From positions 32,201,930-32,265,929 of the forward strand of contig CM034549.1 in the NCBI GenBank assembly GCA_020055645.1: a stretch of DNA of 64,000 bases, in the 5' to 3' direction. Of this stretch, positions 13,227 to 43,900 are shown piece after piece (within the stretch, counting starts at the first letter, position 1; every line of letters starts with the position of its first letter). This DNA is from Tomocerus qinae (taxonomy: Eukaryota; Arthropoda; Collembola; Entomobryomorpha; Tomoceridae). Below the pieces are notes generated by a model, which was given only the letters and a program-made list of their open reading frames with translations, ran no database searches and was not told where the DNA came from. Both the position numbers and the translations under genes were made by a program.

Positions 13227-13230
13227 TATA
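13227..13230. repeat. Left copy of TATA target-site duplication
   Basis: TATA directly abuts the TGTTG end of the foldback element and matches 14394-14397 on the other side. Since TATA is AT-only and self-complementary, a 2-bp TA duplication with longer ends cannot be excluded. Confidence 0.6.
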
Positions 13231-13301
13231 TGTTGTAGGCGGAGAGGGAAAGGTTACTGGGAGGGATATAATATCCCTCTCCGACTAGGCAGGGAGAGAT
13301 A

Positions 13302-13327
13302 GCTCTGTACCGCTAGCGGTACAGAGC
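13302..13327. repeat. Perfect 26-bp palindrome in the left arm
   Basis: The half-site GCTCTGTACCGCT is followed directly by its reverse complement, with no spacer. The right arm has the same palindrome with one mismatch (14297-14322). Such a sequence could be a dimer binding site or form a small cruciform. Confidence 0.95.
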
Positions 13328-13583
13328 CATGAGGTTTCCGACTGGGAGGGATATGTCGTAAAGGATTGCTATGAATGATTCCATGTGTATAAGTGCCACA
13401 AATGTCGCAGATTTTAGGTTACTCTTATATTTATTCATTGTAATCATAAATATTAAGTATATTGCACTTTTTGAATCAGTCATAATAAAATCATAAATTA
13501 TTAAGTCAAGATTGACAGTCAAATAGTTGTATGTTAAGCTGCTATAATTATTATTAATTGATATTTTTTCCAAAGCCAGGAGT

Positions 13584-13670
13584 TCAATTATCTAAATTTT
13601 TGCAAGAACGGCTGCTGCCGTTGTGGCATTTAGTACCACGGTGTATATCATTCTTTTTACAGGGACATTT
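13584..13670 (-). pseudogene. Inverted second copy of the Cys-rich integrase tail (left arm)
   Basis: On the minus strand this reads KCPCKKNDIHRGTKCHNG, then SSRSCKNLDN, with a TGA at 13586-13584. It is the same tail as in the right arm but keeps the frame across the A run. An Arg (IHRG) is where the corresponding plus-strand DNA suggests a Cys codon in the right arm, so one likely zinc ligand has been lost. The copy has no upstream coding context on its own strand: the homology stops at the inner arm boundary at 13670. Confidence 0.7.
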
Positions 13671-14011
13671 TGTTGGATCAACTACTGATCCAAACTTACC
13701 ATGTAAAGTTCTCCAAAGACTAGAAAATGGTAATCTTAAACTACTATGTGCCAAGGGGATCATTAAATGTATGGTAAGTGAAATAAAAATGTCTGTCGAT
13801 GGACCGCTGAAATCGACACAACTGGATGGCCGGAGGAGGCACCTATAAAGTACATTACTGCATTGCAATCTGTAACATCGTACACCTCTCAATCCATTTG
13901 CAAGTGCAGGGGTAACTGTCAAAGTAAATGTCCCTGTAAAAAAATGATATACACTGTGGTACTAAATGCCACAACGGCAGCATCCGTTCTTGCAAAAATT
14001 TAGATAATTGA
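13671..14011 (+). pseudogene. C-terminal remnant of a transposon integrase-like protein (centre and right arm)
   Basis: This reads on the plus strand with at least two frameshifts. Part one (about 13674-13788) reads GSTTDPNLPCKVLQRLENGN, then LKLLCAKGIIK. After a one-base shift in an A run near 13785, part two (from 13791) reads VCRWTAEIDTTGWPEEAPIK, then SICKCRGNCQSKCPCKK. After a second one-base loss in the A run near 13940 the frame that agrees with the left-arm copy gives KCHNG...SCKNLDN and stops at 14009-14011. The regularly spaced Cys and one CH pair resemble the CXC-like Cys-rich tails of integrase-type (Ginger/KRBA2) transposon proteins, which is recognition by pattern, not by search. 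No N-terminal zinc-binding or DDE core is present. Confidence 0.7.
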
Positions 14012-14393
14012 ACTCCTGGCTTTGGAAAAAATATCAATTATTAATAATAATAATTATAGCAGCGTATAACATACTTAACTATTTGACTTTCTATCTTGAC
14101 TTAATAATTTATGATTTTATTATGACTGATTCAAAAAGTGCAATATACTTAATATTTATGAATATTATAGAAAATAATGATTACAATGAATAAATATAAG
14201 AGTAACCTAAAATCTGCGACATTTGTGGCACTTATACACATAGAATCATTCATATCAATCCTTTACGACATATCCCTCCCAGTCGGAAACCTCATGGCTC
14301 GGTACCGCTAGCGGTACAGAGCTATCTCTCCCTGCCTAGTCGGAGAGGGATATTATATCCCTCCCAGTAACCTTTCCCTCTCCGCCTACAACA
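13926..14393. repeat. Right inverted arm of the foldback element
   Basis: This is the reverse complement of the left arm, ending GCCTACAACA at 14393. It carries the same two 14-bp motifs in inverse orientation (14270-14283 and 14355-14368) and the same two palindromes, the 26-bp one here with a single mismatch (14297-14322). The insertion relative to the left arm (about 20 bp near 14160-14180) looks like ordinary AT-rich sequence. Confidence 0.92.
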
Positions 14394-14397
14394 TATA
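14394..14397. repeat. Right copy of TATA target-site duplication
   Basis: TATA directly follows the CAACA end of the foldback element, matching 13227-13230. Confidence 0.6.
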
Positions 14398-39500: not shown

Positions 39501-40532
39501 AAAAAATTATTTCTATTACTTTTATGCAGATCAATACGGATTGCAAAAAATGGCCTTTGCAGTCCAATAAGATAAAAGAGGATTTACTGCAAGGCAATCA
39601 GAAAATATTTTTCTGTCACTACTGAAGTATTTTCCTAAGTTCTTATGCCTATTTAGCTATGGATTTTCTCATACGAGTCATACCATGCATGTTTGTACCT
39701 CAAACAATATATAACTTTATTATTGCTCAGCACCACTAATGTTATGCTCTACATAATAATTACTAGTACTTAGGACTAATAATGTACATTGACAAATTGC
39801 AGGGGTGCACAATGTAGATTATTTCAGTAGCATGTCAACTGCTACAAAATGACTCATGACTCATGATCTCATATCGCGTAGGAGTGTATAGCATACTAAA
39901 AGTACAAAGGTTGATAATAGGATAGGTACATAAGTAATTAACGTAAGGGCAAAGCCATAATTTAAAAAAGTTGGTAGTAGAAGAGTATTTAGTTGTGCCC
40001 GTATCTTGGTTTAAAAGACATTTCCAGATAACGAAGTAAAATGGTTTTATTCTTCGCTAATGTAAAAGTAGGCACGAACAACAATGCTCACCTCGATATG
40101 CTTTTACATAAATAGATAAGAAAGTAATATGTAAAGGTATTTATAGAGACAGCGCAAATGTAGTTAATTAAGTAGTTATATCCATCGAATGCACCTCACA
40201 CAAACGAGAAGAAGAGATAAAAATATAAAGCATAGCTAAGCCACGCCGTAAGTATAGATAATCACAGAGATTATAGTTGAAACGGCCTTAGCAATAAAGT
40301 CATTGGAAAAGTTGATTCAACTTAAAGTAACTTGAGAGTAAGGAGAATGAAATAGGTCAAAAGAAACGGGCCGTATGATTTATGGGTGACAAGTCCTACA
40401 ATGTACTTAACTCACTATCTACTGATAACCGGAGATTAGACAATAATAGTAATATACCTATAGTAAAGCATGTAGTAGTAAAGTATATTGATAGGTACGA
40501 AAAGTAAGTAAAGTAAAAGGAAACTTTGTTAC
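30511..40532 (-). other. Intron 1 of the Glut4EF-like gene (10.0 kb)
   Basis: This is AT-rich noncoding sequence between donor gtaaca and acceptor ttttgattag. No second gene could be supported. The least AT-rich part is about 38.0-39.4 kb, where both strands have overlapping open stretches of up to 175 codons and one strand is strongly pyrimidine-rich (see the separate entry). The remainder shows scattered TAC/GTA-rich palindromes and short T or A runs only. Confidence 0.7.
38835..39367. other. Unassigned open region inside intron 1, pyrimidine-rich on the plus strand
   Basis: Two overlapping plus-strand frames stay open here: 175 codons (38835-39362) and about 113 codons after a stop at 39023-39025, ending at 39367. 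A minus frame is open over 38936-39193. Base use differs from the flanks, with fewer A+T and C/T-rich on the plus strand. The shorter plus frame reads fairly protein-like (DPARVVVYIDVVQSIFP, then RLEDNNRIAHEIQANLQNES), while the longer is dominated by Ser, Leu, Thr and Pro, as expected from pyrimidine-rich DNA. I recognise no domain and see no convincing splice sites. It could be a decayed mobile element, a nested exon or chance; chance is quite possible for frames of this length. Confidence 0.2.
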
Positions 40533-40910
40533 CTCATTGGCGCTCTGCGGCAAGATATTGATGAGGACCTCATCAATCTGTGGCCGGTGGTAGACGACGG
40601 TTCCACAAACTTCCCTGCCGTTGTGTGTGACGAATGTCTTCTGTCCTGACCTGAGTTTGAGGCTGCTCACATTTCCAAAGCCCGGCCCGATAAGCTCACT
40701 CTCGGAGAATTCTCTGGTGTCTCCGGACTCGAAGCGAACCACATAGCGACTATTGGATGTGATGCCGGTATGGCAGTTGTGAAAACTGAGCTCGTCTGGA
40801 TTCTTCGACCCAATTATGACTCCCGGGTGGAAGAGGCCTGTCTCTTTGCAGGGCCCTGACACCCGTGTCCCTACAATGGACCTCTTGGCTAATCTCTTTC
40901 CGGCTGACAT
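40533..40910 (-). CDS. Glut4EF: Coding exon 1: start codon and DUF4772 N-terminal region
   Basis: The exon gives residues 1-126, from ATG at 40910 to donor GAG|gtaaca (phase 0). The start MSAGKRLAKRSIVGTRV parallels the vertebrate start (RRLGKRSLLGARV in ZNF395) and what I recall of insect homologues. The ATG has A at -3 (gaccATG). The frame stays open upstream as far as a TGA at 41034-41036, but no other ATG is available there; the leftmost in-frame start-like codon is only TTG at 40991. Visible blocks are FHPGVIIGSK, YVVRFESGDTREFSESELIGPGF (a charged stretch ending in the conserved LIGPGF) and LRSGQKTFVTHNGREVCGTV, followed by DEVLINIL. The beta-rich, Tudor-like pattern fits Pfam DUF4772, whose biochemical role I cannot state. 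The donor is weak at +5 (C), but the phase fits exon 2. Confidence 0.92.
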
Positions 40911-40916
40911 GGTCAC
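40905..40916 (-). promoter_or_regulatory. Translation start context of the Glut4EF-like gene
   Basis: The sequence reads cgtgaccATGtc on the minus strand, with A at -3, a favourable Kozak position. The family-conserved KRLAKRS block begins four residues later, which decides this start over any alternative. A possible 3' splice site (ttgttcgccaag) lies about 25 bases upstream, so the 5' untranslated part may begin just before the ATG or come from exons further right. Confidence 0.6.
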
Positions 40917-43900
40917 GAGCGAACGAAGCAGTACTTGGCGAACAAAGGAATTCTCAATTTTAGTACAGTTCTCAATATCTACTGTACTCAAAAACTGGTT
41001 CGGAGTACTACTATTATTACTCCAATAATATTCTCATTTATCATCAGTTCCCTTCAATTTCAATGCCAGAACAATCGACGACGTTGACAAGACAAATTCG
41101 ATTGATGATAATATTGTAAAGCAAGTAGTAATGCAATTGCAAGGAGCGACCAGACGAATTTCAATGAACACTTTTAATAGTTCTAGTTCAATGAAGGACA
41201 ACCACTTTGGTACTTAGAGTTACAGAAATAATGTCAGACTGCAATTGTAGAGTTGGTTCGTGTGTATTATAGTATAGTAGTGTACTTGTAGGTGTATCAG
41301 TATAAATTCTACTGCGAGAATGTTCAAAGTTAGTAATATAGAATAGTGACTTCAGTGGAGTCAAGACTTTTACTTGTGCTTTGGTTACGTTGTCGACGAT
41401 TACTATGGTTAGCTAATAGACGTGTTTCCTTGTTGACTACGGCGTCTTCACTTGATTCTTAGCTGTCAATGACGAAAAGTGCATGGATGCAGGAGTGTCA
41501 GCCTTTGTAATGTACTCACACATTAAAGTGTCATAGGAGTACAGCATCTAGTTACGTAGAAAATGTAGACGGAAGCCAACCGACAGAACCACCAAACCGG
41601 GCTTACCTATATCATACAAAATAAAGAAAAAAGTTGGTTAGTCAACGTAAAGAGTGTACGCTCTCTCTCTGTCGTTTACACTTGTGTTGTTTTCCTTGGT
41701 TAGAACGATTAGGTGAGTGACTCACATTGGCATCGCATCACCACCGATAAGAACTTTAACCGATCCCCGATTCCCCATGCAAGGCACCCAGCAACAACGA
41801 AACACGCTCACATGCCGGAAAACTTTTACTTTAGTCCTAGCAACAGGAAAGCAAGGAACCACCTTCGGAGAATTGAGAGAAGAGACCCGAACCGAAAACA
41901 GCCACTTTACTTGCCATTCAACCACTTACTGAACTCAGACTCAAATTACTGCCATTTCTACCAACAGCGCACTTATTTACTATTATGCCTATGACCATGT
42001 TTACTTCGTATATTATGATATTTATGAGAATGCGACTCTTTAGACCGTGTTCCCCCTTCACTATAATAATCTACATTTCCCTACTATATCCTAATGACAA
42101 AGACCACAGAAAAATCCCTGTTGTGTTACATGCAGTATGTATATTATAATAAGTATACTTCCCAGCTGCTAAGTAACTTCTACTGATTTGTGTGTGCGGT
42201 TACAAGGAATTGCGTGTTACAAATGCATATAGGCACTACTACTATATAAGTATATACGCTGTACTAGTAGTCGTAGTAGTATAAGTATGCACACATGTGA
42301 ACAGTACATAGAATAAAAGAAAGCATAGGTACTTGCTGTAGGATGCTATTACCTAACCCAAGCTGGGTAAAGAAAAGGCAATGAGTTATTTTGGCTGACT
42401 ACATCTCAGCTACAGATTTAATAGCTCAATAAACTTATTCCCGAATGTAAACAACGTCCGTTAGCCGAGCTGTACGCGCCTCGCCTCGCCGGTACGACGA
42501 CGACCTAGAGGATTGGTTTGGGTGAGTTCAAAAGGCGCTCTATGGTATTCATATGGAGTGCTAATGGATGTGGTTCCTAGCCGTCGAGGGATGGATGGAA
42601 GAAATGTAGAAGGAAAAGCCGGAGGCTTTTAGTTCAACCTCATACACTTGCAGTGTGTGCATACATATAGCTTAAGCCAGTTCAGCTTGAGAAATGAGAA
42701 TGACTTGACTGGCTGAGTATAGGCGAGAGACTGTCGAGTCGGAGTGGACTGGACCCCAGCAAAACCAAAACAGAAACAACATAACAACAACAACATGCAT
42801 ACAACAACGCAATATCACTCACCATTACATATATATGTATGCATACCTATGCACCCTTGCAATGCCCACTCTATACCTCATCACAAATACTTCGCTAAGA
42901 CCCTTCTTTCTAACTACGCACAATAATACCCTTCGGGGATGAACAGGTGACAACGAACTATGACAACACTGGCATGTTCCAAAAGGGAGAATACCTACAT
43001 CAAGTACCTAAACCCAATCCCTTTCCTTTGTTATGATTTTTCAAAGATATTAAAATTGGGTAAGGAAGGTGATACACATATTTATATTGTACACAAACGC
43101 AGGAAGCATAGATAGTAGATATACAATAAATGCCATAGCGTAAAAAGCAATGTTTATAAAATTTGAACTTTTGTATAGAACGGTAAGTGCATTAAACCCA
43201 ATGGATATAGCTATTTTTGTTTACATCGGAATGAACAGGGAGGAAAATCAACACACACACCCAAAGAATCGGATCCGCAACGAACGAGTTGAAGCGTATC
43301 AGTGCGTAAGTGTATCATGTAATCAAATAATCGAACACGACATTCAATTGAATTTCCCATCCTCTCGTACACGCTCAGAGATAATTTACTTACGTGTGCA
43401 ATGTGCATTGTATTAGGAGTATTTACACAGTAGAAAGCATAGAGATAGTGGTAATTGAATGTTTATGTGAGTAGACAGACATAAATGAACAATATCGATA
43501 GAGTGTAATCAAAAGAAAAGAAAACCTGCTCATCTTCAATTATAAGATTGCGCTTTAGAAATAAATAGCAAAGAGGTGTATCTGTAATTAGGTAGGTAAT
43601 GCATTAGTTTACTTGCCTTTGACAAGAAATCGTTGAGGTACAAACCAAGAGAGAAGGAAACACTAGTAAACTATTACACAGTAGTAGTAGTATAGTAAAT
43701 ATAATTTGCAGTATTATAGGATAGAGGAGTAGAGTCGTTTAGTAACTTTTGCGTTCAGAACAAACAAAACTGACTTCGACCTATATTTCCGGTTTTACTT
43801 TAACATGAACGCACTTTGACTTGTAATTGAATTTGTTTTAATTAGCTAACTGGACAGTAGACTTAATTAGAAGACTCACGAAGGACAACTACTTAAATGT

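Follow-up and report, generated by a model that had tools for sequence, protein, structure and literature searches.

The window analysed here, 64,000 nucleotides of contig CM034549.1 of the collembolan Tomocerus qinae, contains an inverted-repeat element of 1163 bp at positions 13231–14393, whose features are collected in Table 1. The left arm (440 bp) and the reverse complement of the right arm (468 bp) are 91.9% identical when gaps are counted, and 97.8% identical over the ungapped positions of the outer 430 bp; the longest ungapped pieces measure 237 nt (96% identity), 115 nt (96%) and 88 nt (97%). When the whole window was scanned for inverted pairs of at least 60 nt with arms at most 5 kb apart (seed 14), these three arm pieces were the sole result, which excludes chance. 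As single-stranded DNA, the element folds into a single long hairpin (DNA MFE of −521.9 kcal/mol, a single-sequence value). With its long arms and 255 bp of centre between them, it has the architecture of a foldback element, as an earlier note on this DNA had proposed.

Both arms hold the last codons of the same Cys-rich protein, each with its stop codon (13584–13586 on the minus strand, 14009–14011 on the plus strand); the left arm keeps residues 12–39 of this tail and the right arm residues 1–39, in two pieces. The centre is extra coding sequence that continues the right side, since it codes for the protein segment upstream of the tail. The coding remnants contain frame breaks, and this decayed copy, which keeps nothing of the transposase except its C-terminal end, is non-autonomous. 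The same reading of the tail codons, of the centre, of the 4-bp TATA flanks and of the non-autonomy was given in the earlier note, and all of it holds. The window as a whole has 13 stop-to-stop frames of at least 110 aa, of which four were scanned, among them that at 40458–41033 (minus strand), which matches Pfam DUF4772 (9.7e-27) and is probably an exon of a host gene.

Table 1. Features of the foldback element and of its flanks (window positions)
Feature	Position	Strand	Basis
Left copy of the target site duplication (TSD), TATA	13227..13230	.	sequence; equal 4-bp flanks family-wide
Left arm, 440 bp, in reverse orientation to the right arm	13231..13670	-	arm alignment
Outer left arm, natural TIR (~339 bp in L028)	13231..13545	-	L028 alignment
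Right-end-specific 3' UTR inside the left arm	13546..13583	-	boundary alignment; divergence of the true L028/L029 left ends
Stop and last 28 codons of the Cys-rich transposase tail (residues 12-39), inverted copy	13584..13670	-	
Foldback tip, short inverted repeat TTGGATCA/TGATCCAA, 8 bp, 5-nt loop	13673..13693	.	
Centre, decayed exon 2 sequence for the C-terminal transposase part that precedes the tail	13686..13925	+	
Cys-rich tail and stop, right copy, frame broken in the window copy	13896..14011	+	
Right arm, 468 bp	13926..14393	+	arm alignment
Natural TIR, right end	14056..14393	+	L028 and boundary alignments
Right copy of the TSD, TATA	14394..14397	.	sequence

The element belongs to a family that is dispersed in the genome (334 Mb, 115 contigs). 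Among the best 40 of 340 candidates obtained with the whole element, 12 further copies extend over the full 1163 bp at 87–93% identity, and four additional copies are 80–81% identical. The junction of the window type, which we call A1, has 23 genome matches with at most 3 mismatches (three of them sit in one segmental triplication), and that of a sister type, A2, has eight; the reversed-pattern control gave 0 matches. The flanks are equal over 4 bp in 42 of the 45 elements that were cut at their ends, for a random rate of 0.006, or in 40 of 43 if the triplicate L014–L016 is taken once. The three others, L029 (both flanks read CATACA), L017 and L038, are counted as mismatches, and the row of L069, one end of which is outside the locus, was excluded from this table of ends and flanks. 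The 42 duplications read TATA (29), TATC (4), TATG (4), TGTA (2), CATA (2) and CATG (1), and all 42 are preceded by R and followed by Y.

Empty sites were searched with the joined flanks of nine copies other than that of the window, and three of the nine pairs (L059, L031 and L037) gave a match across the junction. In the case of L059, positions 2–160 of the query are matched over exactly 159 bases at 95–96% identity. Several of the L059 and L031 matches have the exact expected length, which shows that the duplication is 4 bp long and that the ends are correctly placed; the comparison of empty sites advocated in the earlier note thus reveals the 4-bp duplication at other copies. The L037 site is weaker (78–82%, with small gaps) and its matches adjoin matches of the L031 type, so both insertions lie in the same repeat. 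The other six joined pairs had no match among the best 40 of 1007 candidates. Two cases of duplicated host DNA were seen along the way: L014, L015 and L016 (C1:62.16–62.18 Mb) are one insertion with the same flanks, present three times at a spacing of about 9.5 kb, hence a tandem segmental triplication; L031 (C1:34.05 Mb) and L032 (C1:28.04 Mb) carry one and the same element, about 6 Mb from each other and between flanks that are reverse complements, which suggests an inverted segmental duplication.

The earlier note had attributed the element to Ginger. The family traits of Ginger2/Tdd are TGTNR ends, 4-bp duplications (in metazoan members) at an AT-rich RTATAY target, and a transposase with H2C2 and DDE domains that lacks GPY/F (Bao et al. 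2010, PMC2836005). The group is further characterized by the lack of a YPYY motif upstream of the zinc finger and by a transposase that clusters with those of TDD-4 and Ginger2 in phylogeny. The present family has TGTTGTAGG or TGTCGTAGACTGG ends; the end letters are TGTTG in the window, TGTCG in types B and C and in L078, and TGTGG in L077, all of which fit TGTNR. The target agrees too, with R and Y in 42/42 and TATA in 29/42 duplications. The transposase had to be sought in a relative, since a Pfam scan of the tail and centre of the window element alone returned 0 families. Relatives that are 75% identical in the C-terminal segment led to L077, an element of 2.85 kb with TIRs of 145 bp and TGTGG-type ends (TGTGGTAG). 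It has an open frame of 478 aa, the first 329 of which were scanned and gave rve (2.1e-9) and Integrase_H2C2 (8.5e-6); the D2–E spacing of its DDE triad is 37 residues. A second open frame ends in the same kind of Cys-rich tail as the window element and matches no Pfam family at E up to 0.1, and no GP[YF] motif was found in the two frames. The gap between them looks intron-like by eye (GTATAT...TTTGCAG), and a script search of this gap found no GTRAG donor in frame. The layout of L078 is similar.

The length of L077 also compares well with that of several autonomous Ginger2/Tdd families (2.7–2.9 kb, or about 2.8 kb), and non-autonomous derivatives such as Ginger2-1N1_NV are known in this group (PMC2836005). 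The TIRs of Ginger2/Tdd elements listed in PMC2836005 span 45–297 bp, mostly about 50–180 bp (260 for TDD-4, 297 for TDD-5), a range that is descriptive and not defining: L077 falls within it, whereas the TIRs of L028 (~339 bp) and the arms of the window element are longer. The presence of tail coding sequence inside both arms is also unlike Ginger2/Tdd as described in that source, whose main text names cysteine for the OTU protease of Ginger1 alone; the tail here is Cys-rich and C-terminal. On the ends, the target and the domains of its relative L077, we assign the family to Ginger2/Tdd. Ginger1 is characterized by CCGG/CCGT duplications, GPY/F and a C-terminal OTU or Ulp1 domain; the TATA-like duplications, the two frames free of GPY/F and the second L077 frame devoid of Pfam families exclude it, as judged from target and domains. 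The initial attribution to Ginger is thus kept and narrowed. IS481EU elements mostly have TIRs below 50 bp, and in parabasalids their duplications measure about 4, 15 or 25 bp, according to PMC10045372; the long TIRs combined with 4-bp duplications found here do not match this description.

The search for an autonomous element, also recommended in the earlier note, yielded a relative with similar ends, L077, and the transposase of the window element's own subfamily was not recognised among the best 150 of 576 matches to the L077 core. The near full-length matches above 40% identity in this set are L077 itself, four at 61–62% and one at 42% with three stops, and the remaining full-length ones are 25–32% identical; those examined as sequence are L077, L078 and the fragments L084 and L085. 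A genome search with PF00665 (best 150 of 579 candidates) did not single out the family of the window element, and tblastn with L077 found only parts of the transposase in L081–L085. Among the loci considered as autonomous candidates, L069–L071 turned out to be copies of the family, while L072 and L073 comprise no more than the C-terminal portion of a less closely related element. The similarity of the ends leads us to infer that an L077-like transposase mobilised the window element in trans.

The long arms could in principle be inherited. If the element were a Ginger2 MITE of the usual kind whose TIRs are long by nature, having tail codons in the left arm would be an ancestral trait of the subfamily, and other derivatives in the same genome do have long arms (339 bp in L028 and L029, about 380–390 bp in L084). 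L028 and L029 nevertheless make this highly improbable: they keep the true 5' end of the window subfamily (TIR, 5' UTR and the start codon, from which MEFPQYFLDFL is read), and in both the left and right ends match over about 339 bp, then diverge before the coding tail. The TIR of L029 is 463 bp long owing to a tandem duplication. The left arm of L028 matches positions 1–315 of the window element and the reverse complement of positions 826–1163. Since the left–right match in L028 and L029 stops at about 339 bp, the natural TIR covers 13231–13545 and 14056–14393. The left arm of the window element continues about 125 bp beyond this TIR, through the 3' UTR, the stop and the tail from residue 39 to residue 12. 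By this comparison, ordinary TIR makes up about three quarters of each arm, where left and right origins cannot be distinguished, and only these ~125 bp of the left arm are demonstrably right-end sequence. The proposal of the earlier note that the 3' end was copied in inverted orientation onto the left thus applies to the inner ~125 bp, not to the outer ~339 bp. One side observation concerns L084 (1108–2367), a relative with TGTGG ends whose long arms surround a piece of the integrase core; these arms may be an independent extension of the TIR.

The right-end sequence may have reached the left arm without the formation of a second right end. The element would then have kept its true left end, and gene conversion from the right arm would have continued beyond the TIR, through the 3' UTR and into the tail, so that the TIR grew inward. 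Such pure elongation of the TIR is in keeping with the outer ~339 bp, which are natural TIR that can be assigned neither to the left nor to the right, and with type C, whose left arms (copies of 1050–1055 bp, eight seen) go just ~23 bp past the natural TIR, as short conversion tracts would leave. The arms of type B end short of the natural TIR, at about 295–301 bp. Arms are also homogenised on average. We compared the arms of 12 A copies (10 A1 and 2 A2, leaving out those with large insertions or shortened arms), 7 B copies and 6 of the 8 C copies, L047 and L048 being left out as identical to L046. The left and right arms of one A copy are 97.53% identical versus 96.51% under permutation, and none of 20000 permutations reached the observed value; the signal is weaker in B (47/20000), and the young C copies show none (3329/20000). 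Only 6/12 left and 3/12 right A arms have the other arm of their own copy as closest match, so that homogenisation within a copy appears as a mean effect, a tendency. Between A copies, identity averages 95.8% for left–left, 97.1% for right–right and 96.4% for left–right pairs; a fixed split of left and right arms was rejected (0 fixed differences), and 10 of the 90 polymorphic columns show the same pattern of copies on both arms. Type A differs from B and C in its terminal bases, and in the elements tabulated with their ends and flanks the two ends are of the same version, bar single-base changes.

Some subfamilies have moved recently, as shown by copies that are identical to the letter at separate sites: L046, L047 and L048 over 1050 bp at three sites, L058 and L059 over 1121 bp at two sites, the duplications of which differ. 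On the sequence comparisons, type A is older than these. Type C (L043–L048, L052 and L056; arms 98–99% alike, separate sites) looks like a young burst. Tandem arrays were also seen near some copies: in L081 (3677–4201) and L083 (3572–4001), cut-off copies adjoin arrays with a period of 63 bp, and in L081 (2005–2535) an array with a period of about 80 bp lies between the left TIR and the C-terminal coding piece.

The A2 copies tell more about the origin of the left half. Six of them were read, four of which belong to the eight A2-junction matches. Their left arm reaches as far as tail residue 24; of the next ~100 bp, 28–65 bp match, at 81–96% identity, the inverted start of ORF1 (codons ~13–34) of L029 or L028; this inverted ORF1 piece lies between the left arm and the centre in all six. 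Read outwards, the left half of A2 thus consists of ORF1 piece, tail, 3' UTR and TIR. The same order is found in L086 (C4:2023941), an internal-deletion element in which ORF1 is joined to about tail codon 12. L086 has its ORF1 break in common with A2 and its tail break (about residue 12) in common with A1, and exon 2 begins at an identical point in A1 and A2. Matches to the ORF1 start and to the tail are only a few bases apart at C1:135945860, C4:2023941, C2:17358835 and C2:48260000, of which the C4 locus was read. L087 is a further deletion derivative, in which the ORF1 start is joined to the 3' UTR. We also note that in 23 of the best 40 ORF1-start matches (C1:123020280, C1:46464382 and others) the similarity, at 92–96% identity, covers ~179 bp of the 5' UTR plus a few codons at the start of ORF1 and then ends; they represent another class of deletion derivatives.

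Since six A2 copies carry the inverted ORF1 piece in the arrangement of L086, the left half is unlikely to have been copied directly from the 3' end of an autonomous element, contrary to what the earlier note had assumed. The same piece weighs against elongation of the TIR, because simple conversion from the element's own right arm does not supply it; we consider that explanation possible, on the doubtful side. The simplest common history would be a single founder, in which exon 2 and the right end became linked to an L086-type right half in inverted orientation; the ORF1 piece would subsequently have been lost from A1.

The two parts may have been joined physically. Two adjacent inverted elements, one of them L086-like, would have been end-joined and then have moved as a hybrid with two right ends. 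The left half of A2, whose outward order is that of an L086-type right half, is what this predicts, and further L086-type candidates exist (C1:135945860, C2:17358835 and C2:48260000). The tip of the hairpin points to copying instead. It was compared in 13 A1, 6 A2 and 12 parent-type copies (L083 included): a perfect stem of 12 bp around 5 nt is present in 6 of the 13 A1 copies, versus a stem of 5 bp in 11 of the 12 parent-type copies. With this inverted repeat at the A1 tip, end-joining seems to us rather unlikely. The idea that A2 shares the snap-back tip of A1 was rejected by the stem test, since the 12-bp stem was not seen in the six A2 copies; given this, the perfect stem in 6 of 13 A1 copies is no more than suggestive of a snap-back step at the tip. 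Short templated inverted insertions formed by foldback at breaks have been reported in yeast (PMC11724301).

We consider it very probable that the window element is a non-autonomous foldback derivative of a cut-and-paste transposon of the Ginger2/Tdd type, the left side of which was rebuilt from right-end sequence. The sequences show that the TIRs of the parent measured about 339 bp, that its first frame started with MEFPQYF and that its second frame ended in the Cys-rich tail. They also show that a derivative arose with the inverted 3' UTR, stop and last codons on its left, and in A2 also the ORF1 piece in the L086 arrangement. This rebuilding may have occurred while a break or an excision gap was repaired: synthesis that began in exon 2, at a short palindrome naturally present there, would have folded back or switched to the right half of a deletion derivative as template and copied it as far as its end. 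The A1 type would then have lost the ORF1 piece. Movement of the element was presumably due to recognition of its ends by a transposase acting in trans. The family spread with 4-bp duplications at RTATAY-like sites.

To our knowledge, the origin of foldback elements from cut-and-paste transposons is known mainly from Galileo. In this Drosophila element of the P superfamily, TIRs are extended by the recruitment of internal sequence (PMC3573991, PMC4168063), and in D. mojavensis the end of the ORF has been recruited into both TIRs (PMC3573991). Galileo is described as having a P-type transposase and 7-bp duplications (PMC3573991, PMC4168063), unlike the integrase-type Ginger2 element described here. 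The Mu killer locus of maize, as presented in PMC3440606, is similar in that part of a transposase gene is duplicated there in inverted orientation, together with a terminal repeat in two copies, and a hairpin RNA is proposed as the product; it belongs to the Mutator superfamily and silences MuDR, whereas the present elements form a dispersed mobile family that is known from DNA alone. Among the open-licence papers listed for this subject, judged by titles and the opening of abstracts, none deals with a foldback or long-TIR Ginger. By this comparison, foldback in Ginger2 would be new, while the recruitment of ORF ends into TIRs is already known in Galileo.

A single genome holds side by side parent-type 5' ends (L028 and L029), a possible donor type for the left half (L086), the junction forms A2 and A1, and the smaller extension of type C. 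The family offers an example of an ordinary cut-and-paste Ginger2 transposon turning into a foldback element, in a superfamily unrelated to Galileo, and the likeness between the two suggests that long TIRs themselves may drive the extension of TIRs into coding sequence. A bolder reading, which we think very unlikely to be right, is that snap-back and template-switch repair has repeatedly given the long-TIR Ginger2 elements of this genome rebuilt ends, and that the A-type foldback, whose stem includes the 3' UTR and the tail of the transposase, silences its own transposase through a hairpin RNA, as a mobile and dispersed analogue of Mu killer; if true, it would explain the absence of the subfamily's transposase among the matches. 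For the classification of such elements, the family is a reminder that the superfamily is poorly predicted by the length of the TIRs and by a hairpin shape.
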